A stretch of DNA of 47,503 nt from Aquabacterium sp. (GTDB lineage: Bacteria > Pseudomonadota > Gammaproteobacteria > Burkholderiales > Burkholderiaceae_C): positions 1 through 47,503 of the forward strand of contig JAKLLB010000025.1 in assembly GCA_023150345.1 (NCBI GenBank), in the 5' to 3' direction. This document shows, piece by piece, positions 13,615-47,503 of the stretch. Under the pieces are notes generated by a model. That model saw nothing but the letters and a program-made list of their open reading frames with translations, was not told where the DNA came from and did not search any database. A program made the position numbers and the translations under genes. Numbering within the stretch: position 1 is the stretch's first letter; every line of letters begins with the position of its first letter.

Positions 13615-13645
13615 AGCCCGGCCACGCACTGGACGGGGCCGGGCT
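13615..13645. repeat. Perfect 9-bp inverted repeat between rpmF and plsX
   Basis: AGCCCGGCC at 13615-13623 and GGCCGGGCT at 13637-13645, with a 13-base loop. No T tract follows on either strand, so it is not a standard terminator. It lies 22 bases before the plsX start and could set the rpmF to plsX expression ratio by stalling or RNA processing. Confidence 0.45.
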
Positions 13646-13808
13646 GACAGTGGGTGCATCACCTCGGGCGGGACGATGGCGTCACGGTGCCGCGGCAGAT
13701 CGAACTCGACATGCGGACCGCACGGCAGGGACGGGCGCAGCACGCCGCAGCGGGACGCACGAGCGCGCGGCTACCCAAGGGCCGCGCCCTGCGGGCGGCC
13801 CAGCGGGC

Positions 13809-13991
13809 TCACGCGTCCTGCTTGGTCTTGAGGACCTTGCGGCCGCGATAGAAACCGGTGGGGCTGATGTGATGACGCAGGTGGGTTTCGCCCGTGGTGG
13901 ACTCGACGGCAACGCCGGGCACCGTGAGCGCATTGTGCGAGCGGTGCATGCCACGCTTGGAGGGCGACTTCTTGTTCTGCTGGACGGCCAT
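13809..13991 (-). CDS. rpmF: 50S ribosomal protein L32
   Basis: 60 residues starting [20 protein letters not shown], nearly the E. coli L32 N terminus, with the conserved [16 protein letters not shown] near the end. It is a cysteine-free form. The yceD-rpmF-plsX-fab order is typical of proteobacteria and couples ribosome and lipid synthesis. Confidence 0.97.
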
Positions 13992-14289
13992 GGAAAGACT
14001 CCTGATCGGAAACCGCGGGCACCGTCCCTCGCCCCATGTTGCACCATGGGCCCGAACCAACGACGGACACGGGGCCGGGCCACGCAGGACCTGCAGACCG
14101 GCGCGCGTTGCGTGTTGCGAAGCAACCGGCACGCAGCACCGGCCCAACGGTGCACCTGCCACCCAACCCCGTGGGTTCGGCGGGCCCGCCACGCGGCATG
14201 CAATGCCACTGCGGAAAAGCGTCGGACTATATCACGGCAGCCGCCTGGGGCACACCCGCTTGGCAACGCCTCGACCCTCGCGGCCGGGG
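13992..14289. other. Intergenic region between yceD and rpmF
   Basis: 298 bases with no recognisable gene. It contains the small palindrome GTTGCGAAGCAAC (hairpin with a 5-bp stem) and C/G-rich repeats. No convincing promoter was seen; an rpmF leader is the simplest reading. Confidence 0.45.
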
Positions 14290-14853
14290 TCAGCTCGGTG
14301 TTCGGCGCTTCAAGCCCTGAAGCGCGGCAAACGGGTGCGGGGCGGCCTCTTCGGGGCCAACGTCGGGCAATCCTTCGTCGGTACTGACTGGCAGGGGATG
14401 CGGGCAGCGCTCGTGCCGCGGCACCAGGGGCAGGGCCAGCAGGAGCTCGTCCTCGACCAATTCCTGCAGGTTGAGCGATCGGGTCAGGGCCAGCACGTCA
14501 TCCTCGAGCTCGGCATCGAGCGCCTCGGCCAGCGACTCGTCGCGCACGAACCGGATGCGGCGATCGACATCGAGCGGCAACGCGAGCGGCTGCAGGCAGC
14601 GCTGGCACGCCATCCACACGGCGCCATGCGCGCGCAGGCGCAGCCACGTCTGCGGCTCGCCGCCCCGAACCGGCTCGAGGCTGGCCTGGGCCGACCATTC
14701 GACCTCGCCCGCGGGGGCGTCCGCCGGACGGATCTGCAACTCGTTCAGTCGACTCAGCTCGTCGGCCGGCCAGCGCCCCTGCAAGGTGCCGCCTTCGGCC
14801 GCCAGTGCGGCCACGTCGAGGCGTCGCGGGTCATGCACACGGGGTTTCATCAC
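14290..14853 (-). CDS. yceD: YceD/DUF177 family protein
   Basis: 187 residues, or 186 from the second ATG. The CQRCLQPL motif (Cys83, Cys86) and a later acidic half ending in RHERCPHPLP are the YceD/DUF177 pattern. In plants and bacteria family members affect 23S rRNA accumulation; the exact biochemical role is not established. It is divergent from maf, with 54 bases between the starts, and is followed by rpmF. Confidence 0.9.
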   Translation of the reverse strand: MMKPRVHDPRRLDVAALAAEGGTLQGRWPADELSRLNELQIRPADAPAGEVEWSAQASLEPVRGGEPQTWLRLRAHGAVWMACQRCLQPLALPLDVDRRIRFVRDESLAEALDAELEDDVLALTRSLNLQELVEDELLLALPLVPRHERCPHPLPVSTDEGLPDVGPEEAAPHPFAALQGLKRRTPS

Positions 14854-14895
14854 CGCCAGTGTACGGTCGCCAGGAACGACGGCAGGCCCTCATTG

Positions 14896-14901
14896 GACAA
14901 T
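14896..14901 (+). promoter_or_regulatory. Putative -10 element of maf (possibly leaderless)
   Basis: GACAAT lies so that the predicted start (7 bases downstream, 14908) is the A of the maf ATG, which would make a leaderless transcript. No clear -35 was seen. No Shine-Dalgarno sequence precedes the ATG, consistent with this reading. Confidence 0.3.
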
Positions 14902-14907
14902 AGCGCG

Positions 14908-15516
14908 ATGACTGCGACGCGCCCTGCCCTCATCCTCGGCTCCACGTCGCGCTATCGGCGCGAATTGCTGGAGCGTCTGCGGCTGCCTTTCGAGGCGGTG
15001 GCACCCGATGTCGACGAGACCGCTCGGCCTGGTGAATCCCCGGCAGACCTGGCGTTGCGCCTGGCCTGGGCCAAGGCGCGCGAGGTGTCCGCCCGCCACC
15101 CCGTTGCCGTGGTGATCGGCTCGGACCAGGTGGCCGACCTCGACGGCATGCCACTGGGCAAGCCGGGCGACCGCGAGCGGGCCGTCGCGCAACTGCGCCG
15201 AATGAGCGGGCGCGCCATCGTCTTCCAGACGGCGGTGGCCGTGGTGCGCGGCGACACCGGCTATGCACAGGCCTGCGTCGTGCCCGTGACCGTACGGGTG
15301 CGCCCGCTTGCCGACGACGAGATCGGCTACTACCTGGACGCCGAGCAGCCCTATGACTGCGCCGGCAGTGCAAAGGCCGAGGCCTTGGGTATCGCGTTGC
15401 TGCAAGCCATCGAGTCGGACGACCCCACTGCCCTGACGGGCCTGCCGCTCATCCGCACCTGCCAGATGCTGCGCGAGGCGGGCATCGATCCGCTGCGGCC
15501 GGCCACGACTGCCTGA
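14908..15516 (+). CDS. maf: Maf-family nucleotide pyrophosphatase, YceF type (7-methyl-GTP)
   Basis: 202 residues. The N terminus LILGSTSRYRRELLERL followed by VAPDVDETARPGESP and IGSDQV matches the YceF subgroup, which hydrolyses 7-methyl-GTP and related modified nucleotides. The C terminus (LTGLPLIRTCQMLREAGIDP) is also YceF-like. The neighbourhood of yceD and rpmF agrees with this assignment. It lies 7 bases before the methyltransferase gene. Confidence 0.92.
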   Translation: MTATRPALILGSTSRYRRELLERLRLPFEAVAPDVDETARPGESPADLALRLAWAKAREVSARHPVAVVIGSDQVADLDGMPLGKPGDRERAVAQLRRMSGRAIVFQTAVAVVRGDTGYAQACVVPVTVRVRPLADDEIGYYLDAEQPYDCAGSAKAEALGIALLQAIESDDPTALTGLPLIRTCQMLREAGIDPLRPATTA

Positions 15517-15523
15517 CTCGTCC

Positions 15524-16342
15524 ATGCCCGGCACACGACCACCCTCGGCACCGGCGGATCGGCCGTCGCCCGCCCCAGACGGCGCAGCCTGTGGCCGCCT
15601 GTGGCTGGTGCCCAACACGCTGGACCTGGGCACCGGACACGACACGCCACTGGAACAGCTGCTGCCGCGTGCGGTGATCGAGCGTGCCGCGATGCTCGGA
15701 CACTGGGTGGTTGAAAACGCCAAGTCGGCGCGCGCACTGCTCAAGCGCGTCGACGCGCTGGTGCCGCTGGCGCAACCGCTGCAACAGGTGCAGATCACGG
15801 AGCTGCCCCGGCCACGCAAGGACGGGCGCACCGATGCCGACGCGCAGGCCTACGACCAGCTGCTGCTGCCGGCGCTGCACGGTCACGAGCTGGGCCTGCT
15901 GTCGGAGGCCGGACTGCCCGCGGTGGCCGACCCCGGGTCGCGCCTGGTGCAGGCGGCCCACCGGCACAGCGTGACAGTCGAACCGATGTCCGGGCCCAGT
16001 TCGCTGCTCATGGCCCTGGCAGCCAGCGGCCTGAACGGCCAGAGCTTCGCTTTCGTGGGCTATCTGCCAGTCGACCCGGTCGCCCGTGCCGCGCGCATTC
16101 GCGAGCTCGATGCCCTGTCGCGCCGATCGCACCAGACCCAGCTGGCGATCGAAACGCCCTATCGCAACGCCGCGCTGCGCGCGGCGCTGATCGAGCACTT
16201 GCAGCCAGGCACCCAACTGGCCGTGGCCAGCGGGTTGACGCTGGCCGGGGGCCGGTGCATCAGCTGGCCGGTCGCGCGGTGGCGCCGCGAGGTGCCGGCA
16301 CTCGACGATCGCCTGCCGGCGGTCTACGCCTGGTTGGGCTGA
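15524..16342 (+). CDS. SAM-dependent methyltransferase, tetrapyrrole-methylase/RsmI-like
   Basis: 272 residues, with about 25 extra Pro/Ala-rich residues at the N terminus. Similarity to RsmI (16S rRNA C1402 2'-O-methyltransferase) is seen in LSEAGLPAVADPGSRLV (SAM site) and VEPMSGPSSLLMALAASGL. It lacks the usual RsmI N terminus LYVVATPIGN, having LWLVPNTLDLG instead. It probably belongs to the YraL-related subgroup often found beside maf in betaproteobacteria, and its substrate is unproven. Its stop codon abuts the stop of the convergent helicase with no space for a terminator. Confidence 0.8.
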   Translation: MPGTRPPSAPADRPSPAPDGAACGRLWLVPNTLDLGTGHDTPLEQLLPRAVIERAAMLGHWVVENAKSARALLKRVDALVPLAQPLQQVQITELPRPRKDGRTDADAQAYDQLLLPALHGHELGLLSEAGLPAVADPGSRLVQAAHRHSVTVEPMSGPSSLLMALAASGLNGQSFAFVGYLPVDPVARAARIRELDALSRRSHQTQLAIETPYRNAALRAALIEHLQPGTQLAVASGLTLAGGRCISWPVARWRREVPALDDRLPAVYAWLG

Positions 16343-17806
16343 TCAGCCGCGCCCGCCGCCCAGCAGCGCGGCCACCTTGCGCTTGGCGCGGATGTTGCCC
16401 CCCAGCGGGCGTACGGCCGGTGTCGCCGCCGGGGCGGGCACGGATGACGGCGCCGCAGCAGCCGTTGGCTCGTAAGGCTGATCGAAGATCGGGTCCTGCG
16501 GCACACGTCCGACCGACATGCGCGGCCGCGGCACTTCGTCATCGCGCCGGAGGGCGCGCTCGTCGTCATCGCGGCGCGGTCGGCGCTCTTCATCTTCGGT
16601 GTCGCGCCGCGGCCGGCGGCGCGGCCGATCGTCTTCGAGCTCGAAAGCCTCGAGGTCGAGCTTCTTCTTCAGCAGTTTCTCGATCTCGACCACCAACCGG
16701 CCGTCTTCTCGGTCGACCAGCGTGATGGCCAACCCGGATGCGCCGGCACGACCGGTGCGGCCGATGCGGTGCACGTAGTCCTCGGCATTGAACGGGACAT
16801 CGAAATTGAACACCGCTGGCAGGTCGGCGATGTCCAGGCCGCGCGCGGCCACGTCGGTGGCCACGAGCAACTCGACATCGCCACGCTTGAAGGCGTCGAG
16901 CGACTTCAAGCGCTCGTCCTGCGACTTGTCGCCGTGCAGTGCGGCCGTCTTCAGCCCGTCGCGCTCGAACGAACGCGCCAGTCGGGCGGCACCCAGCTTG
17001 GAGTTGACGAATACGATGGCCTGCGTGAGCTCGCGCTCGCGCAGCACCTGCCTGACCGCGCGGCGCTTGTCGTCTTCGTCGATGCGGTAGAAGTGCTGCT
17101 CGACCGTGGACGCGGTGGCATTGGGCCGCGCCACCTCGACGGTGACGGGATCCTGAAGGTAGCTCTGGGCCAGGCGCTTGATTTCGGGCGAGAAGGTGGC
17201 CGAGAACAGCAGCGTCTGCCGCTGCTTGGGCAGGAAGCTCAGGATGCGCTGCAGGTCGGGCAGAAAGCCGATGTCGAGCATGCGGTCGGCTTCGTCGAGC
17301 ACCACGTACTCGACCTGATTGAGCACGCAGTTGCGCGCTTCGATGTGATCGAGCAGGCGGCCAGGCGTGGCCACCAGGACCTCGACGCCGCGCTTGAGCT
17401 CGGCCGTCTGCGGTTTCATGTCGATGCCGCCGAACACCACGGTGGACCGCAGCTGCGTGTGCTTGGCGTAGGTCTGCACGCTCTTGGCCACTTGGTCGGC
17501 CAGCTCGCGCGTAGGCGCCAGCACCAGCGCACGCACCGGATGCCGCGCGGGAGACATCGATGCGTTCTCGTGGGCAAGCATGCGCTGAAGCAGCGGCAGC
17601 GTGAAGGCGGCTGTCTTGCCGGTGCCGGTCTGCGCCGCCCCCATCACGTCGCGCCCGTCCAGGACGATCGGGATCGCCTTGGCCTGGATCGGGGTCATCG
17701 ACGTATAGCCGGAGTCGGCCACCGCGCGCAGCAGCTTGGCGTCGAGCGCGAGGGTCTCGAACTTCGGTGCCGGCGCAGGCTCGGCGGTGGAGGTGGTGTC
17801 GGTCAT
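16343..17806 (-). CDS. rhlE: DEAD-box RNA helicase, RhlE type
   Basis: ATP-dependent RNA helicase of 487 residues from the start at 17806; an upstream extension of the open frame covers the divergent rfbD region and is rejected. Motif I is AQTGTGKT (58-65), Ia PTRELA (98-103), II DEAD (171-174), III SAT (202-204), and motif VI HRIGRTGR is intact. The tail from about residue 385 is an Arg/Asp-rich low-complexity stretch, then Pro/Ala-rich, then a basic end (IRAKRKVAALLGG). Such tails bind RNA and help targeting. Confidence 0.93.
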   Translation of the reverse strand: MTDTTSTAEPAPAPKFETLALDAKLLRAVADSGYTSMTPIQAKAIPIVLDGRDVMGAAQTGTGKTAAFTLPLLQRMLAHENASMSPARHPVRALVLAPTRELADQVAKSVQTYAKHTQLRSTVVFGGIDMKPQTAELKRGVEVLVATPGRLLDHIEARNCVLNQVEYVVLDEADRMLDIGFLPDLQRILSFLPKQRQTLLFSATFSPEIKRLAQSYLQDPVTVEVARPNATASTVEQHFYRIDEDDKRRAVRQVLRERELTQAIVFVNSKLGAARLARSFERDGLKTAALHGDKSQDERLKSLDAFKRGDVELLVATDVAARGLDIADLPAVFNFDVPFNAEDYVHRIGRTGRAGASGLAITLVDREDGRLVVEIEKLLKKKLDLEAFELEDDRPRRRPRRDTEDEERRPRRDDDERALRRDDEVPRPRMSVGRVPQDPIFDQPYEPTAAAAPSSVPAPAATPAVRPLGGNIRAKRKVAALLGGGRG

Positions 17807-17896
17807 GAACCGGGGATTATCCCGCACCCCGGTGTCATCGGTGCGACGGCGCCCCGACCCCCTGTCGGGGGTGCCGCGCCCGGCGAACCCCCCGCC

Positions 17897-17902
17897 TACA
17901 AT
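17897..17902 (+). promoter_or_regulatory. Putative -10 element of the rfbDC operon (TACAAT)
   Basis: TACAAT 9 bases before the rfbD ATG; the predicted start (about 17909) leaves a leader of only 3 bases. No good -35. A stem-loop CCCCGAC/GTCGGGG (17852-17870) lies upstream, between the divergent rhlE and rfbD starts. Confidence 0.4.
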
Positions 17903-17911
17903 CTGGAACCG

Positions 17912-18856
17912 ATGAAGATCCTGCTGTTGGGTCCCGATGGCCAGGTGGGCTGGGAACTGCGCCGCGCGCTGGCGCCGCTGGGCGAGGTGGTGGCCGCCGG
18001 CCGGGCCGAGGGCGCCGATTTGTCGCAGCCCGAAGCGCTGGCCGCCCTCGTGGCGCGCGTCGCGCCGCAGGTCGTCGCCAATGCCGCGGCCTATACCGCG
18101 GTCGACCGCGCAGAGGGCGAGCAGCAGCTGGCCCGCACGGTCAACGCCCAGTCGCCGGGCCTGCTGGCGCGGGCCGCCGCCGCCAGCGGCGCCTGGCTGC
18201 TGCACTTCAGCACCGACTACGTGTTCGACGGCTCCGGCAACGATCCACGGGATGAACGGCACCCGGTCGCGCCCCTGTCGGTCTACGGCCGCACCAAGCT
18301 CGAGGGCGAAGAACTCATCCGCGCCAGCGGCTGCCGGCACCTGATCCTGCGCACGAGCTGGGTGCATGCGGCTCGCGGCCAGAACTTCGCCCGCACCATG
18401 CTGCGCCTGGCCGCCGAGCGCGACCAGTTGCGGGTGGTCGACGACCAGGTGGGCGCCCCCACGGGCGCCGACCTGCTGGCCGACTTGTCGGCCCACCTGC
18501 TGCGCGTGGCCCGCGCCCGCCCCGAGGTGAGCGGCACCTACCACGCCTGCGCGGCTGGCCACACCAGCTGGTGCGGTTATGCGCGTCATGTCATCGGCTG
18601 GGCCGCGAGCCGGGGGCGGCCGCTGCGCACCACGCCGGCGCAGGTGCTGCCCATCACGACCGCCGAGTACCCCCTGCCTGCACCGCGACCGCTGAACTCG
18701 CGCCTGGATACCCGCAAGCTCTGCACCACGTTCGACGTCACGCTGCCACACTGGCAGGCCGGGGTCGAACGCATGCTGGCCGAGGTGCTCGACCTGCCCC
18801 TGACCGCGCCGGTCGCGCCCGGCGCAGCCGCCTCCATCGCCGCCCCCACCCGATGA
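17912..18856 (+). CDS. rfbD: dTDP-4-dehydrorhamnose reductase
   Basis: Last step of dTDP-L-rhamnose synthesis. 314 residues. The nucleotide-binding loop GPDGQVG is at 8-14, with FSTDYVFDG at 99-107 and the catalytic pair Tyr125/Lys129 in YGRTK. The C terminus carries an extra Pro/Ala-rich tail of about 20 residues. It overlaps rfbC by ATGA. The first two pathway genes (rfbA, rfbB) are not in the window. Confidence 0.95.
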   Translation: MKILLLGPDGQVGWELRRALAPLGEVVAAGRAEGADLSQPEALAALVARVAPQVVANAAAYTAVDRAEGEQQLARTVNAQSPGLLARAAAASGAWLLHFSTDYVFDGSGNDPRDERHPVAPLSVYGRTKLEGEELIRASGCRHLILRTSWVHAARGQNFARTMLRLAAERDQLRVVDDQVGAPTGADLLADLSAHLLRVARARPEVSGTYHACAAGHTSWCGYARHVIGWAASRGRPLRTTPAQVLPITTAEYPLPAPRPLNSRLDTRKLCTTFDVTLPHWQAGVERMLAEVLDLPLTAPVAPGAAASIAAPTR

Positions 18857-37627: not shown

Positions 37628-38533
37628 TCAGCGGGTTTGCGATATGGCGGTGATGCGGATTTCGTTGACGGGGACGTTGGTCAGCGTGATGGGCGGGCTC
37701 GAGCCGCTGACCAGCAACGACGTGGTGACGACCGAGCCGATGGAGTCAGCCACATCCATGCCCGACACCACCGTGCCGAACACGGCATAACCAGGGCTGG
37801 ACGCGTCCACGTAGTCGAAGTCCGCATTGTCGGCCAGATTGACATAGAACTGCGTGGTGGCGGAGTTCAACTCCGTCGTGCGTGCCATGCCGACGGTGCC
37901 GCGCAGGTTCTTCAGGCCGTTGTTGGATTCCAGCTCGATCGGCGCCAGCGTGGCCGCCTTGGGCGACAGCCCGGTGACGTAGCCGCCGGCCTGGATCAGC
38001 ACGCCCGGCACGGCGCGATGGAACAGCGTGTTGCGCAGGAACGGTGTCGTCTGGTTCACGTAGGCCAGGAAGTTGTCCACCGCCTTGGGTGCGCGCACCG
38101 GATCGAGTTCGAGCACCATCGTTCCCGTGACCGAGGTACTCGCCTGCGCGGCCGTGATGGTGACCTGCGGCAGCGGGATGTCCAGCCGCAGCGTGGCGAT
38201 CTCCTTGCCCTCGCCATTGCGCACGCGGGGCTGGAACGAGCCCAGCGTGGTGACCTTGCAGGTGAAGGTCTGGGTACTGTCGGTGGCGCCGGCGGCAGCC
38301 GTCATGGCGCCGCAACCGGGTTCGGCGCTCACCGTGATGCCGTTGTTCAGGCCGTTGCCACTGACCACGACGCTCACGGTCTTGCTGTAGGCGACGCTCG
38401 TGGCTGACATCGTGGAGACGACCGGCAAGCCGCTCGTGCCGCCGCCGCACGACGCCAACAGCGCAACAACCGGCAGCACCAGCAGGCGGTGCGCGGCCGG
38501 CAGGAAACGTTCGAGGCAAAGCTTGGGGTTCAT
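37628..38533 (-). CDS. Lipoprotein cyclophilin-type peptidyl-prolyl isomerase
   Basis: 301 residues. Lipobox LLASC with Cys29 predicts an outer- or inner-membrane lipoprotein. An Ig-like N-terminal domain (about 35-125) precedes a cyclophilin domain (about 130-295) with FHRAVPGVLIQAGGY holding the catalytic Arg, and QFYVNLADN. It helps proline isomerisation in the periplasm. Placed between a TolC-type channel and Wzm with overlaps or near overlaps, it is likely a dedicated folding factor for this export locus. Confidence 0.88.
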   Translation of the reverse strand: MNPKLCLERFLPAAHRLLVLPVVALLASCGGGTSGLPVVSTMSATSVAYSKTVSVVVSGNGLNNGITVSAEPGCGAMTAAAGATDSTQTFTCKVTTLGSFQPRVRNGEGKEIATLRLDIPLPQVTITAAQASTSVTGTMVLELDPVRAPKAVDNFLAYVNQTTPFLRNTLFHRAVPGVLIQAGGYVTGLSPKAATLAPIELESNNGLKNLRGTVGMARTTELNSATTQFYVNLADNADFDYVDASSPGYAVFGTVVSGMDVADSIGSVVTTSLLVSGSSPPITLTNVPVNEIRITAISQTR

Positions 38534-40047
38534 GGCTGGCGGACCGCTGGGGCGGCGGTTGCGTTCGGTGTGGACAGTGCAGCCGTGGCTGCGTTCGCGG
38601 CTTCGGCGGTTGCCGCGGCAGGCGCTGCCGTGGCAGCGGGCGGGGGCACCGATGCGGTGGCCGGCACGCCGAGCAGGCGGTTCACGTCGGCCACCACCTC
38701 GTCGTGGGGCATGCCTGAAGCGGCCATCAGGCGCAGCCGAGACATCAGGTGGTCGTAGCGCGCCTGGGCAAGGTCGCGGCGCGAGGCATGCAGCCGCGCC
38801 TGGGCATCCAGTACGTCGCTGGTGGTGGCCATGCCGCCGTCCAGCGACCGCGTGGCACCCTGCAGCGTCACTTCGTTGGCCGCCACGGCGCGCATCAGCG
38901 CCCCCACCTTGTGCACGCCGTTGCGCGTGGCCAGGAACTGGCGCTGCACCTCGCTCTCGACGGCTTCGCGCTCATTCTTGAGCTCGGCTTCCGCGCGGGC
39001 CTGATCGGCCAGCGCCTGCTTCACACCGGCCTCGGTGCCGCCGCCGTTGTAGAGCGGCACGCTCACCTGAACGCCGATGGACCCCAGCACGTTGGTCTGG
39101 TTCAGGCTGGTGATCGAGTCGTTCGTGTTGCGCGCCAGGCTGGCCACCAGGTCCACCCGCGGGTAGTGCCCGGCCGCCTGGCGGCCCACACCGAGCCGGG
39201 CGGCCATCAGTGCCTGGGTGCGCGCCTGCAGCTGCGGGCTCTGGCGCAGCGCGATCTCGAGCCACTCCACCAGCGATTGCGGCTCGAGGGGCGGCGGCTC
39301 GCGATCGGCCTGGGGCCGCTGCAGCGCCAACGGGTCGGTGCCGGTGACACGCTTGAAACCCCGCGTCGCGACCTCCTCCAGGTCCCGTGCCTCGAGCGCC
39401 TGCACTCGCGCCAGTTCGTAGGCCGACTGCGCCTGTGCCACCTCGGTCCGGGTGCCCTCGCCCCGCTTGTAGCGCTGCTCTGCGCGGGTGAGCAACCCCT
39501 GAGCCGACTGGCGCTGCGTCTGCGTGAGCGCCACGTTGTCGGCGGCCAGCAGCACCTGCAGGTAGGCCATGCCCAGGCGGTCGAGCAGTTCGTTGCCGCG
39601 CTGGCGATACACCGACTCGGCCGCCTCTACCTGCACTTGCGCCTGCTCGTGGCGCCGCATGGCTTCCACGTTGAACAACGGCATGCGCACCGACAGGTTG
39701 GCCTGCGGCGAGGAGTAGGCCACGTCGGTCTTGACCTCCTGGTTCAGCGAGTTCTGGAATGAGCGGGTGCCGGAATAGTCGGACCGCGAGAGGTTCAGCC
39801 CTGCCGCTGGATACAACGCCGACCGAGCGATGGGCACCAGCTGCCGGTTGGCATCGAGCTCGTGCTGGGCGGCACGGTACTGCGCGTCATGGGCGCGTGC
39901 CGCGGCATAGGCCTCGGCAAAGCTCATGGCCTGCGCGCCGGCCGTCGCACACAGGCAGGCCAATGCCACCAGTCGGGGCGCCCAAAGCCGTGCGGCCCCG
40001 TGACGCTCGGGATGCCGCCCTGCGGTTCGTGCAGCACGCATGCTCAC
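38530..40047 (-). CDS. TolC-type outer-membrane channel of a type I secretion system
   Basis: 505 residues from GTG at 40047, which overlaps the adaptor stop (GTGA), or 503 from ATG at 40041. Signal peptide ends about residue 39 (ATAGAQA). The two helical hairpin repeats of the TolC/PrtF family cover about 45-460 (LARAGxx-like patterns, QRYKRGEGTRTEVAQAQSAYELA and SLDGGMATTSDVLDAQARLH). The last 45 residues are Ala/Pro-rich. It forms the outer-membrane exit for the ABC/HlyD genes upstream. Confidence 0.92.
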   Translation of the reverse strand: MSMRAARTAGRHPERHGAARLWAPRLVALACLCATAGAQAMSFAEAYAAARAHDAQYRAAQHELDANRQLVPIARSALYPAAGLNLSRSDYSGTRSFQNSLNQEVKTDVAYSSPQANLSVRMPLFNVEAMRRHEQAQVQVEAAESVYRQRGNELLDRLGMAYLQVLLAADNVALTQTQRQSAQGLLTRAEQRYKRGEGTRTEVAQAQSAYELARVQALEARDLEEVATRGFKRVTGTDPLALQRPQADREPPPLEPQSLVEWLEIALRQSPQLQARTQALMAARLGVGRQAAGHYPRVDLVASLARNTNDSITSLNQTNVLGSIGVQVSVPLYNGGGTEAGVKQALADQARAEAELKNEREAVESEVQRQFLATRNGVHKVGALMRAVAANEVTLQGATRSLDGGMATTSDVLDAQARLHASRRDLAQARYDHLMSRLRLMAASGMPHDEVVADVNRLLGVPATASVPPPAATAAPAAATAEAANAATAALSTPNATAAPAVRQP

Positions 40048-41420
40048 TCCTCGGTCAGGGCCGCCGCCACACGCTTGGTCAGCGGATGCAGCAGATAGGT
40101 CATGAGCGAACGCTCGCCGGTCTTGATCAGCACCTCGGCCTGCATCCCCGGTTGCATCACGCGCTTGCCCAGGGCCTTCTGCCCCTCGGGCGTGAGAGCG
40201 ACACGGGCCAGGTAGTGACTGATCGGGCCCATCGGCGTCTGTTCCTGCACCGCGTCGGCCGACAACGACACCACCTTGCCGTGCACCACGAGCTGCGGCG
40301 CGTCGGCAAATGCGGTGAAGCGCACCTCGGTTTGTTCGCCCACTTTCACGCGGTCGATGGCGTAGGGTGGCACCTTGGCGTCGAGCAGCAGCGTCTCGCC
40401 ATGAGGGACCACTTCCATCAGACGCTGACCAGGCGTGACCACGGCGCCGGAGCCGCTGACGTTCAGCGCGATCACCTGGCCATCGGCCGGGGCCTTGACC
40501 TGGGTGCGGCCGAGCTCGCCCGTGATGGCGGCCAGCCGCTCCTGGTTGGCCTGCACCTCGCGCCGCAGTTCGGCCAGTTGCCCCGACACCTCCTTGAGGT
40601 AGTCCTGCTCGCGCTGCGCGATGCGCAGCCGGGCCTCGGCGATGGCGCTCTGGGCGCGCTGGATGTTCGTCTGCAGATCGGCCAGCGAGGTGCGCAGCTC
40701 GGCCTGGGCCTGCTCGAGCTGCAGGGCCTGGTTGCGCGGCGCAAAGCCCTCGTCGGCCAGTGCCTTCACGTTCTCGAGCTGGCGGGCCTGGATGGCCAAC
40801 TGGCCGCGCCGGCTTTCGGCCATCTGGTTGAGGCCGGCGATCTGCCCTTCCAGTCCGGCGATGGTCTGGCGCGCGGCGCCCAACTCGGCGGCCTGGGAGG
40901 CCCGGCGCGAGTTGAACAGCTGCTGCTGCACGCTCATGTGCTGGGTGGCTGCGGCCTCGGTGGCGGACATCAGATCAGGATGGAAGGCGATGCTCGCGGC
41001 GCCGCTCACTTCGGCCATCAGTCGGCCCTCGAAGGCGCGCTGGGCCAGGTAGTTCTGGCGGATGGTCTCGTGGGCGGCGCGCGTGGTGCTGTCGTCCAGC
41101 ACCACCAGCGGATCGCCGCGCTTGACCTCCTGGCCTTCCTTGACGAGCACCTTCTGGACCACGCCACCTTGCATGTGCTGCACGGTCTTGCGCTGGGTCT
41201 CGAACGACACCACCGCGGGCGCCGCAACGCCCTCGTCCAACGGCGCCCAGGTGGCCCAGGCCAGGAAGAGGCCGAAGCCCACCACCAGCACCCACAGGCC
41301 CAGTCGGATCACAGGGCGGGTATCGGTCTTGAGCGCCACGTCGTCGACATCGGTCACCGGTGTCGAGCGGGGGGCAGCGGCGAGGTCGGCTCGCGCGATG
41401 GGGTTGGCGTTCGTGTTCAT
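40044..41420 (-). CDS. HlyD-family membrane fusion protein (periplasmic adaptor)
   Basis: 458 residues from the start at 41420, which overlaps the ABC gene by ATGA. One transmembrane segment at about 38-57; a lipoyl/barrel half at about 65-115 (VSFETQRKTVQHMQGGVVQ, VLVKEGQEVKRGDPLVVLDD); a long alpha hairpin (about 115-325); then the second barrel half (RTQVKAPADGQVIALNVSG). Typical PrtE/HlyD adaptor linking ABC protein to TolC. Confidence 0.95.
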   Translation of the reverse strand: MNTNANPIARADLAAAPRSTPVTDVDDVALKTDTRPVIRLGLWVLVVGFGLFLAWATWAPLDEGVAAPAVVSFETQRKTVQHMQGGVVQKVLVKEGQEVKRGDPLVVLDDSTTRAAHETIRQNYLAQRAFEGRLMAEVSGAASIAFHPDLMSATEAAATQHMSVQQQLFNSRRASQAAELGAARQTIAGLEGQIAGLNQMAESRRGQLAIQARQLENVKALADEGFAPRNQALQLEQAQAELRTSLADLQTNIQRAQSAIAEARLRIAQREQDYLKEVSGQLAELRREVQANQERLAAITGELGRTQVKAPADGQVIALNVSGSGAVVTPGQRLMEVVPHGETLLLDAKVPPYAIDRVKVGEQTEVRFTAFADAPQLVVHGKVVSLSADAVQEQTPMGPISHYLARVALTPEGQKALGKRVMQPGMQAEVLIKTGERSLMTYLLHPLTKRVAAALTEE

Positions 41421-43189
41421 GCTTGCGTGCGGGCCGTCGAGGCCTCGGTTCGTGTCACCACGGGCAGGATGCGGGAGATCTGCCCCTTCTCGAGGATGAG
41501 CACCCGGTCGGCCGCGGCCAGCAGGTGCTGCTGGTGGACGATCATGAAGACCGTCTTGCCGCGGGACTTGAGTTCGCGCACCGTGCGCACCAGCGCGGCC
41601 TCGCCGGCGTCGTCGAGGTTGGCATTGGGCTCGTCGAGCACCACCAGCGACGGATCGCCCAGGATGGCGCGCGCCAGGCCGATGCGCTGGCGCTGGCCGC
41701 CCGAGAGCATGCCGCCGGCCTCGCCCATGGGCGTGTCGTAGCCCTTGGGCATGCGCAGGATCATCTCGTGGATGCCGGTGCGCTGGGCGGCTTCGATCAC
41801 CTGCTCGGCCGGTGTGTCGGCAAAGCGGGCGATGTTCTCGGCGATGGTGCCGTCGAACAGCTCGATGTCCTGCGGCAGGTAGCCCAGGTGCGGGCCGAGG
41901 TGCTCGCGCGACCACTCCTCGATGGGGTGGCCGTCGAGCAGCACCTGGCCTTCGGTGTGCGGCCAGATGCCGACGATGCAACGCGCCAGGGTGCTCTTGC
42001 CGGCGCCCGACGGCCCCACGATGGCGATCACTTCGCCCGCCTGGAAGTCGGCCGTCAGACCACCCAGGATGGGTTGCGCGCGCCCCGGAGCCCGTGCCAC
42101 CAGGCCGCTCAGGCTCACCTGGCCGGTCACGTCGTCGCCGACGTGGCGGTCGGCGCGCTCGGGGTGGGCTTCGAGGAGCTGCTCGAGGCGCGCATAGGAA
42201 GTACGCATGTCCAGGAGCTGCCGCCAGGCCTGCGTGAGCACGCCCACCGGCCGCAGGGCGTTGCCCATCAGTGCATTGCTCGCGATCATCGCGCCGGCAC
42301 TGATGTGCCCGTCGATGGCGAGCAGCGCGCCCATGGCCAGCATCAATGACTGCTGGGTGTACTGCACGTACTTGGTCACCGCCTGCACGCGATGGGCACC
42401 TTCGGCTGCGCCCGCCTGTGCGGCCAGATGCCGCTCGTGCAGCGCCAGCCAATGCTGGCGCAGGCTCGACAGCATGCCCATGGCATACACCGTCTCGGCG
42501 TTGCGCAGCTTGCCTTGCAGGTAGCCGGTCGACTCGGCGAGGCTGGTCTGGGCCTGCTCGTGCCGCCGCACCGTGTAGCGGTGCCCGAACACGGCCACGG
42601 CGAACATCACCGCTGCACAGACCACGGCGGTCCAGCCCAGCCACGGGTGCATCAGGAACAGCACGGCGATGTACACCACCGTCCACGGTGCATCCATCAG
42701 CGCGAAGGCACCATTGCCGGTGAGGAACTGGCGCAGGTTGGTCAGGTCATTGAACGCCTGCAGCGGATTTCGCCCGGCACCGCTGAGGCTGGCCTCGAAG
42801 CTGCTGCGGAAGACGGCCGAGTTCAGCGCCTCGTCAAACCGGGCCCCGGCCCTGACCAGCAACCGCGAGCGCAGCCATTCGGCAAAGGCCATGGTGAGGA
42901 AGAACAGCACCATCACCGCCGACAGCACCAGCAACGTGACCTCGCTGCCGCTGACCAGCACGCGGTCGTACACCTGCATCATGTACAGCGTGGGCGTGAG
43001 CATCAACACGTTGGCGAAGAAGCTGAACACCGCCACCCAGGCCAGTTCACGCTTGAACAACGCCAGTGTGCGGCCCAGCTGGCTGCGCTGGAAGAAGCCG
43101 CCGCCCGTGGCCACGGGGGCCGATGCACGCGCGGCGCTGCGTGAGCCTGTTGCGGCACCGGTCAGCGCCTGTGTCGTCGTGGTGGTCAT
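41417..43189 (-). CDS. Type I secretion ABC transporter, PrtD family (second of two)
   Basis: 590 residues. Transmembrane domain about 50-325 followed by the ATPase domain: Walker A GPSGAGKST (392-400), signature LSGGQRQRIGLARAI, Walker B SLVVLDEPNANLD and the switch His region in MIVHQQHLL. There is no N-terminal peptidase or C39-like domain, as in PrtD/LapB-independent RTX exporters. The N terminus has a 30-residue Thr/Ala-rich lead. ATGA overlaps at both ends. Confidence 0.94.
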   Translation of the reverse strand: MTTTTTQALTGAATGSRSAARASAPVATGGGFFQRSQLGRTLALFKRELAWVAVFSFFANVLMLTPTLYMMQVYDRVLVSGSEVTLLVLSAVMVLFFLTMAFAEWLRSRLLVRAGARFDEALNSAVFRSSFEASLSGAGRNPLQAFNDLTNLRQFLTGNGAFALMDAPWTVVYIAVLFLMHPWLGWTAVVCAAVMFAVAVFGHRYTVRRHEQAQTSLAESTGYLQGKLRNAETVYAMGMLSSLRQHWLALHERHLAAQAGAAEGAHRVQAVTKYVQYTQQSLMLAMGALLAIDGHISAGAMIASNALMGNALRPVGVLTQAWRQLLDMRTSYARLEQLLEAHPERADRHVGDDVTGQVSLSGLVARAPGRAQPILGGLTADFQAGEVIAIVGPSGAGKSTLARCIVGIWPHTEGQVLLDGHPIEEWSREHLGPHLGYLPQDIELFDGTIAENIARFADTPAEQVIEAAQRTGIHEMILRMPKGYDTPMGEAGGMLSGGQRQRIGLARAILGDPSLVVLDEPNANLDDAGEAALVRTVRELKSRGKTVFMIVHQQHLLAAADRVLILEKGQISRILPVVTRTEASTARTQA

Positions 43190-44964
43190 GCGGCACCTCC
43201 GGGCAGCGCGGCGCGCGGTGCGGCCGCCTGGCGGGCGGCCTCCATCTGCGCGCGCGCCTGTTCATTGGCCTTCTTCAGTGCGGCCAGCACCTCGTCGCGC
43301 GGGCCGAAGAAGGCGGCCTGGCCGTCGTTCATCACCAAGAGCTTGTCGAATGCCGGCATGAGCGTCGTGCGGTGGGTAATGGCCACGACGGTGACGCCGC
43401 GCGACTTGAGGACCTGCAGCATCTGCAGCAGCGCCTTCTCGCCGGCCTCGTCGAGGCTGGAGTTGGGTTCATCGAGCACCAGCAGGCGCGGCTCGCCATA
43501 AACCGCGCGGGCCAGGCCCAGGCGCTGGCGCTGGCCCCCGGAAAGCACCGCACCGTCGTCGCCGATGCGTGTGTCGTAGGCCTGCGGCAGCGCCTCGATC
43601 ACATCGGCCATGCCCACCAGTTCGGCCGCGGCGCGCACACGGGGCATGTCGACATCGCCGAAGCGGGCGATGTTCTCGGCCACGGTGCCGTCGAACAACT
43701 CCACCGTCTGCGGCAGGTAGCCGACATGGGGCCCGAGCTCGTCTTTCTTCCAGGCGTGCACGTCGGCACCGTCCAGGCGCACCTTTCCGCCCGCTGCCGG
43801 CCAGATGCCCATCAGCAGGCGGGCCAGCGTGCTCTTGCCGCAGGCCGACGGGCCGATCACACCGACCACCTCGCCCGGCCGAGCCGCGAAGCTGATGCCC
43901 TTGAGGATGGGCAGCGGGCTGCCCGGTGCGCCGGCCAGCACGGCCTCGACGCTGAGCTGGCCCTTGGGCGCGGGCAGCGGCATGTGTGCGTCGTTCTCGG
44001 GTGGCTTGCCCAGCAAGGCATCGAGCCGGCCGTAGGCGTCGCGCACCCCCACCACCAGCCGCCATTGACCCACCAGCTGGGCCAACGGCTGGAGTACGCG
44101 GCCACCCAGGATGGAGGCGATGATGAGCATCGCGCCGCCACCCCAGAGCTTGTTGTAGAGCATCAGCCAGCAGGCGCCGCCGAGCAGCAATGAGCTCTGC
44201 ATGGTCTGCACCAGGCGCGCCAGTGTCGCGCTCAGGCCGCCGTAGTCGGACGCCTCTGCCTGGCGGGCCAGGAATCGGCGCTGCAGGCGCATCCAGCGGG
44301 CGTGGATGGCGCCGAGCATGCCCATCGACTCGATGACCTGCGCGTTCTTCAGGCTCGATGCGGCATAGGTTTGCGCCTGGATCGAGGCCCGCTGCGCTTC
44401 GGTGAGCAGCGGCATGGTGCGGCGCTCGGTGAGCACCGCCAGCAGCACCTGCAGGCCGGCACCGGCCAGCGCGAGCAGCCCCAGCCAGGGGCTGATGGCA
44501 AACAGCAGCGCCAGGCAAATGAGCGCGGCGGGCGTGTCGAGCACGGCCGTGATGGCGGGTGTCGACACGAACTCGCGCAGGGTGCGCAGGTCGTTGAAGG
44601 GCTGCGTGGTGCCGCCGGGCTGGCGCTTGAGGTTGGCCTCGAAAGCGACGTCGAACAGCCGCGCGCGCACCCGGGCATCGATGTCTTCTCCGGCCTGGTG
44701 CAACAGGCGCGCGCGCACCAGATCCAGCAGCTCGAGCACCACGTACACACCCAGCACCATCACCAGCAGCCAGCCCAGGGTGGCGGCATTGCGGCTGTTG
44801 AGCACACGGCCGTACACCTCGAACATGAACCACGATGGCGTGAGCATGAGCAGGCCGGTGACCACGCTCAGCCAGCCGGCCTGGGCCCAGCGCGGGCGTT
44901 GCTCGCGCATCACGCCCTGCAAAAAGGTTGCCGCTGCCGCGGCCTTGGGTTGCGGTGCACTCAT
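43186..44964 (-). CDS. Type I secretion ABC transporter, PrtD family (first of two)
   Basis: 592 residues, same architecture as its downstream neighbour: transmembrane domain about 28-310, Walker A GPSACGKST (371-379) in which Ala-Cys replaces Gly-Ala, signature LSGGQRQRLGLARAV, Walker B LLVLDEPNSSLD, switch region AITHRTTL. Two coupled PrtD-like genes suggest a heterodimer, or two exporters with one adaptor and channel. It overlaps the TnpB-like gene upstream by ATGA, so their translation is probably coupled. Confidence 0.93.
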   Translation of the reverse strand: MSAPQPKAAAAATFLQGVMREQRPRWAQAGWLSVVTGLLMLTPSWFMFEVYGRVLNSRNAATLGWLLVMVLGVYVVLELLDLVRARLLHQAGEDIDARVRARLFDVAFEANLKRQPGGTTQPFNDLRTLREFVSTPAITAVLDTPAALICLALLFAISPWLGLLALAGAGLQVLLAVLTERRTMPLLTEAQRASIQAQTYAASSLKNAQVIESMGMLGAIHARWMRLQRRFLARQAEASDYGGLSATLARLVQTMQSSLLLGGACWLMLYNKLWGGGAMLIIASILGGRVLQPLAQLVGQWRLVVGVRDAYGRLDALLGKPPENDAHMPLPAPKGQLSVEAVLAGAPGSPLPILKGISFAARPGEVVGVIGPSACGKSTLARLLMGIWPAAGGKVRLDGADVHAWKKDELGPHVGYLPQTVELFDGTVAENIARFGDVDMPRVRAAAELVGMADVIEALPQAYDTRIGDDGAVLSGGQRQRLGLARAVYGEPRLLVLDEPNSSLDEAGEKALLQMLQVLKSRGVTVVAITHRTTLMPAFDKLLVMNDGQAAFFGPRDEVLAALKKANEQARAQMEAARQAAAPRAALPGGAA

Positions 44965-45632
44965 GGGGCGTGACTCGGAAGGTGGGTTGCCGCCATGGCC
45001 AGTTCGGCCGGCATGGGCAGGGGTGGGTCGTCGGTGACGATCACGTATTCGGGCAGTTCGCCGTTCGCGGCGGCCTCTTCGGTGGCGATGGGTGCGTCGC
45101 CGTCTTCGGCAGGCGCTGCGAACTGAAAGCTCAGCCGAAAGCGCCCACCCGCGCGGTCAAGGACGATCTCGCGCAGCTTCTCGGTACGAAAGCGCTCTTC
45201 GTAGTCGGGCGTGAGATCGAGCTGGAACTTCATGCGGCCATCGAGCGTGAACATCGACGCCTGGCCGTCCTTGATGCTCAGCGTGTGCCGATCGAAGTAC
45301 ACCGGCGACTGCGGCAGGAACTGCACCCGCGGCAATGCACGATCGCCCAACCGTCCCAGGTTGAAGGGACTGGACGGATGCTGGTAGACGATGCGACAGG
45401 TGCGGGACACGGAGTAGATGGCGTTGCAGATCATCTGCGAGCCCAGTTCAGGAAAGCGTTGCCGCAGCGGCTTGTAGGCCATGTGGTGCAGCGCCACCCG
45501 GTTCCAGCAGCGGGTTTGCTGCACCACCGGCGCCAGCGCGTTGCACACCTGCGCGAACGCCTGTTGCAGGGCGCAAAGGCGCTGCTCCTGGGCGGGGGTG
45601 TTGCGCAGCGTCAGCCGAACCACGGAATTCAT
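44961..45632 (-). CDS. TnpB-like protein without RuvC nuclease domain
   Basis: 223 residues. Residues 1-85 (VVRLTLRNTPAQEQRL, then YKPLRQRFPELGSQ and ICNAIYSVSRTCRIVY) resemble the N-terminal domain of IS605/IS607 OrfB (TnpB) proteins; residues 108-172 (VYFDRHTLSI, FTLDGRMKFQLDL, REIVLDRAGGRFRLSFQF) resemble the strand-rich block that in TnpB immediately precedes RuvC. Where GIDLG of RuvC should begin there is instead an acidic tail of about 50 residues. So the nuclease is absent, not mutated. The frame is intact and its stop overlaps the start of the first ABC gene, which argues for a working, domesticated gene. The ATG lies inside a perfect inverted repeat with no Shine-Dalgarno at normal distance. 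Function unknown. Confidence 0.75.
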   Translation of the reverse strand: MNSVVRLTLRNTPAQEQRLCALQQAFAQVCNALAPVVQQTRCWNRVALHHMAYKPLRQRFPELGSQMICNAIYSVSRTCRIVYQHPSSPFNLGRLGDRALPRVQFLPQSPVYFDRHTLSIKDGQASMFTLDGRMKFQLDLTPDYEERFRTEKLREIVLDRAGGRFRLSFQFAAPAEDGDAPIATEEAAANGELPEYVIVTDDPPLPMPAELAMAATHLPSHAP

Positions 45633-45666
45633 ATAGGAGCGCGATGGTACCTTGCTCCTATATGAA
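45628..45666. repeat. Perfect 13-bp inverted repeat covering the start codon of the TnpB-like gene
   Basis: TTCATATAGGAGC (45628-45640) and GCTCCTATATGAA (45654-45666) separated by 13 bases. The ATG of the TnpB-like gene is in one arm. The arms are A/T-richer than the surrounding DNA. No T tract follows, so it is not a terminator. Possible roles: protein operator (arm centres 26 bp apart), an mRNA hairpin hiding the start codon, or a relic of a transposon end. Confidence 0.9.
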
Positions 45667-45773
45667 GTCAAGCCCGATGTCGCGCGCGTGCACCGCGGCG
45701 CACGCATTTGCCCTGCATCGACCCCAACGGCGCAGTTCGCGCCCGTGCCGACAGACCGCGCGAGCTGCGGCGA

Positions 45774-46295
45774 TCAGTGCAGTGCGCCCCCTACACCGGG
45801 CTGCGGCGCCGTCCGCTCGAGTGGCAGCTCGGGCAGCGCCCAGTGGGCAACGGCCACGCGGCGGCTGAGCGCGTCGACCAGTGCATGCAGGGTCGGGTTC
45901 GACAGCACCAGCGCCAGCGGCGGCTGGCCCCGGCGCTCGAACTGCACCACCCAGCGCGCATCGGCCCGGCGGCGCCCGCACACCACCTTGGTGACCAACA
46001 CGGGCGGTTGCTCGGGTGCCGGTGCGTCGTCGGCGGCCTCAGTGCGGGTGGGCACCTGGCTGGACACGGCCTGGTGGTGCGCGGCCGAAACCACGGCGCG
46101 GGCACCCTTGTCCATACGCTCGGGCAACTCGGCAGAAAGGTCGACCATGGCCTGCAGGTCGCGGCGCAGCGCAATGCAGATGCGGCGCGTGAGATGCAGC
46201 CAGTGTTCAACTGGCTGGCCGTCCACCCGCAACGTCAGGCGCAGCAGCAGCCGGTCTTCCAACGGGTCGTAGCGGACGCTGATGTTCAGCAGCAT
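45774..46295 (-). CDS. Hypothetical protein of the secretion locus (173 aa)
   Basis: No family recognised. It begins with strand-like segments (LLNISVRYDPLEDRLLLRLTL), then a helix (LTRRICIALRRDLQAMVDL), a Pro/Ala/Glu linker (about 95-112) and a second strand-helix half (LVTKVVCGRRRADARWVVQF and SNPTLHALVDALSRRVAVAHW). The two halves have a similar strand-then-helix layout. No signal peptide or membrane segment, so cytoplasmic. It lies 70 bases after the 97-residue gene and 141 bases before the TnpB-like gene. A cytoplasmic helper of substrate handling is only a guess. Confidence 0.7.
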   Translation of the reverse strand: MLLNISVRYDPLEDRLLLRLTLRVDGQPVEHWLHLTRRICIALRRDLQAMVDLSAELPERMDKGARAVVSAAHHQAVSSQVPTRTEAADDAPAPEQPPVLVTKVVCGRRRADARWVVQFERRGQPPLALVLSNPTLHALVDALSRRVAVAHWALPELPLERTAPQPGVGGALH

Positions 46296-46305
46296 GATGG
46301 GCGAA

Positions 46306-46334
46306 GGGCCCTGCCGGCTCCCGCCGCAGGGCCC
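46306..46334. repeat. Perfect 9-bp inverted repeat between two small genes
   Basis: GGGCCCTGC (46306-46314) and GCAGGGCCC (46326-46334) with an 11-base loop, lying between the 97-residue and 173-residue genes, 11 bases before the latter's start. No T tract. May be an RNA processing or stability element. Confidence 0.5.
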
Positions 46335-46365
46335 CGCAGGGCGTGTGGGCGGGTGGCGCCCGGGA

Positions 46366-46659
46366 TCAGGCCTTGGCGTCGGCGGCAGGCTTGTCGTCGG
46401 CCTTGGCTTCCTTGGCCTTGGCCACGCGCTTTTGCTGGCGGGTCACCAGTTCCTTGACCATCTGCTGCTGCATGGCCACACCGTTGACGAACGAGTCGAC
46501 CGGCAGCACGAGCTGGTGGGTGATGTCCATCTTCAGGCCGTCCTTGCCGTCCTTGGTCTTGGCCGGGCCGGCGATGGTGGCGAGGTCGATGCGGACCAGG
46601 CCGTTCTGCAGGGACAGGCCGACCACGCGGTCGGCGAAGACGATTTGCTTGTTTGCCAT
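46366..46659 (-). CDS. Small cytoplasmic protein of the secretion locus (97 aa)
   Basis: 97 residues starting MANKQIVFADRVVGLSLQNG. The core (about 8-73) reads strand-strand-strand-helix, ending HQLVLPVDSFVNGVAMQQQM, a layout that weakly recalls DUF3467-type small proteins; I do not claim membership. The end (from about 76) is a Lys/Ala/Asp-rich tail. No signal peptide. A TACAAT -10 element lies 87 bases upstream, so this gene may start the transporter transcript. Confidence 0.75.
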   Translation of the reverse strand: MANKQIVFADRVVGLSLQNGLVRIDLATIAGPAKTKDGKDGLKMDITHQLVLPVDSFVNGVAMQQQMVKELVTRQQKRVAKAKEAKADDKPAADAKA

Positions 46660-46745
46660 GGTGTTCTCGGTACGAAGCGTGAGAAAGCCGCCCCACTCTG
46701 CATTGCGCATGCGCGCGTGCTGCTCGGGCGGATGAAAAACCGGTG

Positions 46746-46776
46746 ATTGTAGTTCAGCGGTGCCGCGCGGCACCGC
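46746..46776 (-). promoter_or_regulatory. Putative promoter and 20-bp palindrome upstream of the 97-aa gene
   Basis: GCGGTGCCGCGCGGCACCGC (46757-46776) is a perfect 20-bp palindrome. On the minus strand it is followed after 5 bases by TACAAT (46751-46746), with a predicted start near 46739. The palindrome occupies the -35 area, where a bound repressor would block polymerase; it could also act as a hairpin at the end of the preceding small ORF. Confidence 0.45.
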
Positions 46777-46810
46777 AGGCACAGATGCTGTGGAGATGCT
46801 CTGGAGATGC

Positions 46811-46984
46811 TCAGAGCCCGGCTTCGCGCAGGCGCTGCAGGAAGTCTTTCTGCGCGGGATGCTGGATGACGACCACGCGTGACCGCCGCAGCGACGCGTT
46901 CGGGCGCACCGCGGGCTGCCGGGCGCTGTGGCCGGCGACCGGCTTCGGGCTCAGAAGGCTGGGGTGGGCGGGAGGCGGCGACAT
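46811..46984 (-). CDS. Possible small ORF (57 aa)
   Basis: Starts MSPPPAHPSLLSPKPVAGHS and ends RSRVVVIQHPAQKDFLQRLREAGL-like, quoted here only in part: the last 18 residues are VVIQHPAQKDFLQRLREA plus GL. The C-terminal half has a plausible strand and amphipathic helix and G/C-rich third positions, but no family is recognised and no Shine-Dalgarno is visible. It begins 27 bases after the predicted start of the CRP-type promoter, which is the main reason to keep it. Confidence 0.38.
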   Translation of the reverse strand: MSPPPAHPSLLSPKPVAGHSARQPAVRPNASLRRSRVVVIQHPAQKDFLQRLREAGL

Positions 46985-47010
46985 GGTGCGGACTCGGTGG
47001 GTGACGGTGT

Positions 47011-47060
47011 GGAAGGGATTTTGTCGGCGACCGGTCACTTTGGATGTGATGGCTGTCACT
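47011..47060 (-). promoter_or_regulatory. CRP-family operator and class II promoter candidate
   Basis: On the minus strand AGTGA-N6-TCACA (47060-47045) matches 9 of 10 bases of the CRP consensus TGTGA-N6-TCACA. CAAAAT (47023-47018) is a possible -10; the predicted start at 47011 puts the operator centre at -41.5, the exact class II position. Downstream are the 57-aa ORF and the small genes leading into the type I secretion operon. Confidence 0.55.
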
Positions 47061-47185
47061 TGTTCGGCACCACTGGCGTATGGCACATCAATGCACTGAA
47101 CCAGGGAATACCTACAACATGCGATCGGACCACCGTCGGTTCAAGCCAAATACGCCTCCACGCCCCTCCGTTACCACGCGATGAG

Positions 47186-47212
47186 AAAAAAAACGGGCCC
47201 CGAAGGACCCGT
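47186..47212 (-). terminator. Rho-independent terminator after the secreted-protein gene
   Basis: On the minus strand an 8-bp stem ACGGGTCC/GGGCCCGT (one G-U pair) closed by a TTCG tetraloop and followed by eight T residues (47193-47186). A very strong terminator, 53 bases after the stop of the partial gene. Confidence 0.92.
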
Positions 47213-47224
47213 TCTTAGCTGAAT

Positions 47225-47248
47225 GGGTAGGGGCGATCACCCCTACCC
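47225..47248. repeat. Perfect 9-bp hairpin just after the secreted-protein gene
   Basis: GGGTAGGGG (47225-47233) and CCCCTACCC (47240-47248) with a 6-base loop, 17 bases after the stop codon at 47266 and 12 bases before the terminator stem. Tandem 3' hairpins like this often protect abundant mRNAs from exonucleases. Confidence 0.7.
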
Positions 47249-47265
47249 GTCGACACAGCAACTCG

Positions 47266-47503
47266 TCAGGCGAAGTTGGCAGCGTCCCAGTTGCCAGCAA
47301 CCAGCTCGGTAGTGCTGTTGATCGTACCAACCAGCGTAACGCTCGGCGTGAAGCCGGCGCCAGCCGTGGTGTCCTGCACGAAGTACACCAGGTACGGATT
47401 GACAGTGCTGTCTGCCGCCCCATCCGCATCAGCGGTGACCAGAACTACCGCCTTAGCGTCATTGGCAAGAACGACATCGCCGTTCGCGATCGTCAACGAG
47501 CCC
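47266..47503 (-). CDS. C-terminal fragment of a probable type I secretion substrate
   Basis: The frame is open to the window edge; 79 codons are visible, the gene starts outside. The fragment is rich in Ala, Thr, Val, Asp and Asn, has few charged basic residues and no Cys, and reads as beta strands (DAKAVVLVTADADG, YLVYFVQDTTA, SVTLVGTINSTTELVAGNWD) ending in NFA. That end is typical of RTX-type, S-layer-like and other beta-rich proteins whose type I secretion signal is C-terminal. The adjacent exporter supports this. No calcium-binding nonapeptides are in the visible part. Confidence 0.72.
   Translation of the reverse strand, partial: GSLTIANGDVVLANDAKAVVLVTADADGAADSTVNPYLVYFVQDTTAGAGFTPSVTLVGTINSTTELVAGNWDAANFA

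Follow-up and report, generated by a model that had tools for sequence, protein, structure and literature searches.

A 47,503-nt stretch of the Aquabacterium sp. assembly GCA_023150345.1 (contig JAKLLB010000025.1, positions 1 to 47,503; hereafter the window) carries gene X, which codes for a RuvC-less protein derived from the transposon nuclease TnpB and fixed in an operon for a type I secretion system (T1SS). The coordinates of X, of the sites at its start and of the surrounding genes are collected in Table 1. Gene X runs on the minus strand from an ATG at 45632 to a stop codon at 44961-44963. Its frame of 223 aa is intact, as stated in the original prediction, which named no strand. The motifs quoted there, YKPLRQRFPELGSQ and VYFDRHTLSI...FTLDGRMKF, were both found in X. 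The overlap of the X stop with the start of the ABC transporter gene by the letters ATGA is present in the window, and the same letters were found at the stop of X in 30 of 44 loci.

Homology of X to TnpB and conservation of the gene

A profile made from 33 X proteins (A1) matched the full TnpB of genome G208 (L104) with 135.8 bits and the Methylomarinovum TnpB with 130.1 bits. As controls, the 19 sequences of the test set (one of them an L083 stub) were reversed or shuffled 20x, and the highest control score was 5.3 bits. The match stopped at TnpB residues 168-170, shortly before the start of RuvC at residues 178-179 (GVDVG), in keeping with the predicted TnpB layout up to that domain. All 50 matches listed in a PDB structure search with the predicted fold were TnpB, Fanzor or Cas12-family entries. 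Residues 1-173 and 1-176 of the models superposed on residues 3-175 and 3-178 of ISDra2 TnpB, so that the WED and REC domains proposed for X are present in the predicted structures.

X alone had no convincing match in Pfam, NCBIfam, PHROG or the PDB sequences, and its homology to TnpB therefore depends on intermediates or structure. Profile A1 gave two weak matches among the PDB sequences (E 0.93 and 1.1), and its 33 members matched no TnpB family in Pfam. Of ten distant TnpBs, the 8 listed scored <=1.2 bits with the X profile; among nine nearer ones, that of Natrialba scored 2.6 bits, which is under the control maximum. A mixed profile (A2) reached TnpB and Cas12 entries of the PDB through the RuvC half, and its N-terminal half had no usable match in the four alignments printed; A2 was set aside because it says little about X.

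The similarity of X to TnpB stops before the RuvC domain with its D-E-D residues, and the CCCC zinc-finger TNB domain (zinc ribbon) is absent from the 223 aa. Neither the RuvC half nor tnpA (L104 query) gave a tblastn match with E up to 1 in 44 loci and the window; both controls of the tnpA search were found. X thus differs from the TnpB of IS200/IS605 elements in the loss of both domains, in the lack of tnpA or RuvC-half matches at its loci, and in its conserved tail and T1SS context. It shares with the nearest TnpBs found the predicted WED and REC fold, the GSQxxCN helix and the FDxRT and GR motifs. The genome of the window (94% complete) gave no PF07282 match at E 0.001 and no match to the left-end pattern of the related transposons; one Y1 (IS200-type) transposase was seen on its contig C24 (L240, 7568-7927).

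The acidic tail noted earlier was confirmed by counting K/R and D/E residues (net charge -10 in residues 173-223 vs +11 in residues 1-172). The net charge of the tail ranged from -11 to 0 across 44 loci, so that it is not strongly acidic everywhere. Its PEYV strand (residues 191-200) had a mean predicted local distance difference test score of 93 in the model of the window protein and 81 in that of L029.

Relatives of X were collected by a scan of genome contigs (28) and by a family search of 200 genomes, which gave a strong match in 16 and a weak match in 7. One weak match (L045) stops near a contig end and adjoins the same ABC gene. The other six weak matches (L046-L051, E 3e-6 to 8e-3) were treated as chance, as no TnpB was recognized by eye among the long open reading frames (ORFs) printed. 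A T1SS ABC transporter gene follows X directly in 44 of 44 loci, including the window, with an estimated gap of -24 to +151 bp. The length of X from the matched start was 197-234 aa in 43 loci (L002 is cut), and on this ground a decaying remnant was rejected. The survey of homologues proposed earlier thus showed a conserved length and a conserved ABC neighbour. Neither tnpA nor a RuvC half was matched in any of the 44 loci, and the homologues are not random-length remnants beside intact tnpB genes. Profile A1 comprised 33 of the 44 X proteins, leaving out L002, L031-L033, L035, L036, L038, L040-L042 and L044. Not all loci are independent: L015 and L035 are identical where compared, and L002 shares 95% identity with the window.

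In a tree of 33 X proteins and 8 TnpBs, X formed a single clade (100/99) beside the TnpBs of L082 and L104 (94/86, not starred). The bearers of X are Betaproteobacteria of nine families, where class or family is named. When 398 genomes sampled from the phylum were searched with the profile, X turned up in G000 and G087 alone, along with one TnpB, so X appears uncommon outside its own group. Viral contigs contained no relative detectable with profile A1 or the L083 TnpB, and two distant relatives were matched by the L104 TnpB. Of 17 plasmid matches, 11 were annotated as TnpB or transposase and one was judged to be chance (hmgA, E 7). On a Methylocalor plasmid (L084, 4001-4492), a short relative of X or TnpB that looks decayed lies beside the partition genes.

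Predicted operator sites and the proposed TAM of related transposons

The strongest clue to the function of X is a conserved predicted operator at its start that resembles a target-adjacent motif (TAM), a feature absent from the original prediction. The promoter region of X contains 11-bp sites arranged as the inverted repeat TTCATATAGGA...TCCTATATGAA, which usually flank the -10 box and overlap the ATG. The operator is predicted to lie inside the promoter of X itself, and the X mRNA to be nearly leaderless. When 300 bp upstream of X plus 20 bp into the gene were scanned, the exact 11-mer was found in 37 of 43 loci and a site with <=2 mismatches in all 43 loci having upstream DNA (L002 has only 4 bp). 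Of 141 matches with <=2 mismatches in 448,496 bp, 118 fall inside the 320 bp at the start of X; both counts include overlapping off-by-one matches. At 31 of the 43 loci such a site overlaps the ATG. A -10-like TAnnnT between the arms, ending 7-12 nt before the ATG, was present in 26 of the 30 loci that fit the ATG pattern in the right arm (shuffled spacers: 0.14).

Operator and X co-occur. The 4.58-Mb assembly of the window contains only the two exact 11-mer copies at the X start, and five one-mismatch sites vs one for a control pattern. The exact inverted pair was found in 9 of the 200 family genomes. These 9 belong without exception to the 16 strong-X genomes, and the pair is always at the X start (in G009, at an in-frame ATG further upstream); the 184 genomes with no strong X match had 0. 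Across 24 distinct pairs the operator measures 32-47 bp. The variable spacing of the arms fits monomers bound independently, and TnpB is described as a monomer (PMC10097598). In some loci the sites stand as direct or back-to-back repeats, an arrangement that suits binding to DNA better than an RNA hairpin. Deviations from the consensus agree between the arms of a locus at position 9 (p 0.0018) and position 12 (p 0.0002), and more weakly at positions 14 (p 0.050) and 15 (p 0.033); these permutation values are rough, as the loci are related.

The nearest TnpBs found are those of the Methylomarinovum tepidoasis plasmid IN45P (L082), of G208 (L104) and of the gut contig MT839988.1 (L083). The left ends of their three transposons align as TTCAT/AGAA...AGGAAACC-hairpin, and the DNA to the left of the boundary (slash) is unrelated. 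TAMs of IS605 elements lie directly before the left end. From this position and the TTCAT boundary, we infer that TTCAT is the TAM of the three elements; the same five bases begin the 11-bp site of X. An uninterrupted site in G242 supports insertion of the G208 element at this junction. The left-end pattern was matched by 92 stretches of viral DNA and by 11 genomes in the sample of 398. The left-end hairpin is kept in the known elements only; its 4 matches in 106 loci include one element twice, and the TAM assignment accordingly stands on three elements. In L082 (4006-5566), an IS4-family transposase gene is annotated between the IS605 left end and tnpA, like a second insertion.

The TAM of ISDra2 is read by residues K76, F77 and Q80 of one helix, as described in PMC10097598. 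The invariant residues G64-S65-Q66..C69-N70 of X correspond to this helix by position in an alignment made by eye. The motif GSQxxCN is common to X and the three TTCAT TnpBs and missing in five other TnpBs compared.

Secretion genes and other neighbours

The T1SS setting of X was verified with NCBIfam, in which the two ABC proteins matched TIGR01842 (605.6 and 641.6 bits), the HlyD protein TIGR01843 (339.8 bits) and the TolC protein TIGR01844 (252.6 bits), all above cut-off. In two Azonexus metagenome-assembled genomes (L022, L026), one ABC gene follows X and no second was seen in the available stretch; X is therefore linked to the exporter generally and not to the ABC pair. The sister genome G143 (L093) has, upstream of X and at the place corresponding to the last ORF of the window, a gene for a 2416-aa RTX-repeat protein (10714-17964, minus strand). 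This giant protein is the probable export substrate.

Two small proteins encoded upstream of X, of 173 aa and about 97 aa, had no family match in Pfam, NCBIfam or PHROG. By eye, the 173-aa protein resembles a family of 165-184 aa encoded downstream of X in four other loci (in L008 at 5425-5980, counted from the X start). The 173-aa protein and this family are possibly a further accessory of these exporters.

Table 1. Positions of gene X, its predicted control sites and adjacent genes in the window
Feature	Position	Strand	Remarks
Gene X, 223-aa RuvC-less TnpB-derived protein	44961..45632	minus	predicted WED1-REC-WED2 at residues ~1-175; the acidic tail that follows has a conserved PEYV motif
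Predicted operator half-site TTCATATAGGA	45628..45638	plus	reads TCCTATATGAA on the gene strand; overlaps the ATG of X
Predicted second half-site TTCATATAGGA, inverted	45656..45666	minus
-10-like hexamer TACCAT	45644..45649	minus	between the half-sites; ends 11 nt before the ATG
-35-like hexamer TTGACT	45666..45671	minus	16 bp from the -10-like hexamer; consensus match only
PrtD-type T1SS ABC transporter 1	43186..44964	minus	overlaps X by ATGA
PrtD-type T1SS ABC transporter 2	41417..43189	minus
HlyD-type membrane fusion protein	40044..41420	minus	start codon inferred
TolC-type outer membrane protein	38530..40047	minus
Conserved 173-aa protein upstream of X	45774..46295	minus	62% in G143/L030, 41% in L013
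Conserved small protein (~97 aa) upstream of X	46366..46659	minus	start inferred; 67% in L030
C-terminal end of probable exported protein	47266..47503	minus	ORF open at the window edge; contig ends at 47503

Proposed function and competing explanations

We regard it as probable that X works as an exapted TAM reader and, binding DNA as protein alone, as an autorepressor of its secretion operon. The TAM-reading half of an IS200/IS605 TnpB would have been captured, apparently once, by a betaproteobacterial T1SS operon and stripped of its nuclease. Single X molecules would bind the asymmetric 11-bp site TTCATATAGGA with the TAM cleft, usually to either side of the -10 box; the ancestral TAM would survive as the first five bases of this site. 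In most loci bound X would mask the start codon together with the -10 box and the transcription start, and so would shut off X and the overlapping ABC exporter gene. The tail with its PEYV strand would be the obvious candidate for relieving this repression and may sense some export-related signal. X itself would be the reader of the operator, and its effect would be repression; the earlier proposal that X regulates the export locus is probably right. We give slightly better than even chances to the broader claim that TnpB TAM recognition was exapted alone, with neither nuclease nor guide RNA, the WED/REC cleft acting as a sequence-specific transcription factor that reads the TAM plus six bases.

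Several observations weigh against this explanation. Twelve of 43 loci (L003, L008, L009, L017, L018, L022, L025, L032, L033, L040, L041 and L044) have no site with <=2 mismatches over the matched start, so repression cannot work by blocking the start at every locus. In L040 (G009) the site sits at an upstream in-frame ATG; X of this locus apparently has an 80-residue N-terminal extension that begins at this operator ATG, 240 bp before the usual start. The exact inverted pair is missing in 7 of the 16 strong-X genomes. X is 6-14% identical to the solved relatives among the matches listed, and its residue-level TAM contacts therefore stay predicted. The empty site in G242 reads TTCAA, so the last T of the motif depends on the three elements alone. 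Chance could also account for TTCAT in the operator, as a 5-mer that can fall in several registers and on two strands. The tree has several long TnpB branches, with L083 grouping with L085 (86/35). The agreement of the arms at position 12 would fit a 7-nt guide too.

Such a guide belongs to a TldR-like mode of action, which we consider unlikely. In it X would keep a guide RNA and TTCAT would be the TAM; the rest of the half-site would pair with the guide, which would be very short, consisting of AUAGGA and one base particular to the locus. The operator does have the form of a TAM plus 6-7 bp, its arms agree at position 12 and weakly at 14 and 15, and the TldRs described in PMC13418256 are RNA-guided repressors targeting DNA. 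In the TnpB structure described in PMC10097598, WED and RuvC together hold the omegaRNA scaffold, with RuvC in three of four described contacts, and the TAM duplex sits in the WED/REC cleft. Of the original statement that X kept the RNA/DNA-binding half, the RNA part is not supported: X has kept the TAM-holding cleft and lost the RuvC scaffold contacts. The 3' tnpB and right-end region, given in the same description as the omegaRNA source, is replaced by the overlapping ABC gene. Both changes favour guide-free reading of the operator, and X would accordingly require no RNA. No Rfam match up to E 1 was found in 43000-47503 of the window. ATAGGA is conserved from one family to the next, a constancy not expected of guides, which should drift. 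Of 48 tests for a further copy of a half-site 10-mer within its locus, 1 was positive vs about 0.17 expected, too few to tell.

It is improbable that another host regulator binds the operator and that X serves the secretion system in a structural or chaperone-like role. The adjoining exporter gene in every locus would fit such a role, and the PEYV motif could touch the ABC protein or its substrate. A general regulator would be expected to own further sites, but the exact pair was found solely at X starts and in none of the 184 family genomes lacking a strong X; the TAM match and the fold would then be coincidences. Still less probable is an mRNA hairpin that hides the start codon, with X regulating translation by binding this RNA. 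In the window, a 13-bp hairpin whose 3' arm contains the ATG can be sketched by eye. The -10-like box lies inside the would-be loop (26 of 30 loci), so that the mRNA would begin in the 3' arm, and the hairpin is impossible in the several loci with direct, back-to-back or single sites.

Classical bacterial autorepressors are small, and their genes lie directly behind an operator that covers the promoter. As an autorepressor, X would resemble them in all three respects; it would differ in reading DNA by a WED/REC cleft instead of a helix-turn-helix, and in its asymmetric sites of variable spacing and orientation. With TldR it shares descent from an exapted TnpB tied to a non-transposon gene (44 of 44 loci) and the inferred role in repressing transcription. 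TldRs, as described in PMC13418256, carry an inactivated RuvC and a guide RNA, in agreement with the contrast to nuclease-dead relatives drawn earlier. X has no RuvC at all, and its predicted target is its own promoter, via a conserved sequence. Cas12f (9i8y, 8j12, 8dzj) is a CRISPR effector with a nuclease half and guide RNA, and is described as a dimer (PMC10097598). A literature search, with most subscription papers outside its scope, returned no description of such a family among the papers listed; priority is not established.

To our knowledge, the descendants of TnpB known so far (Cas12, Fanzor, TldR) all keep an RNA-guided architecture. If the proposed function is correct, a module that reads TAMs or protospacer-adjacent motifs would be able to stand alone as a transcription factor, as a naturally minimal, possibly RNA-free, TAM-reading fold. 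A class of DNA-binding domains would have arisen from an RNA-guided nuclease, and the operator would still show the ancestral TAM. The way in which a TnpB descendant came to control a secretion operon would be explained as well.
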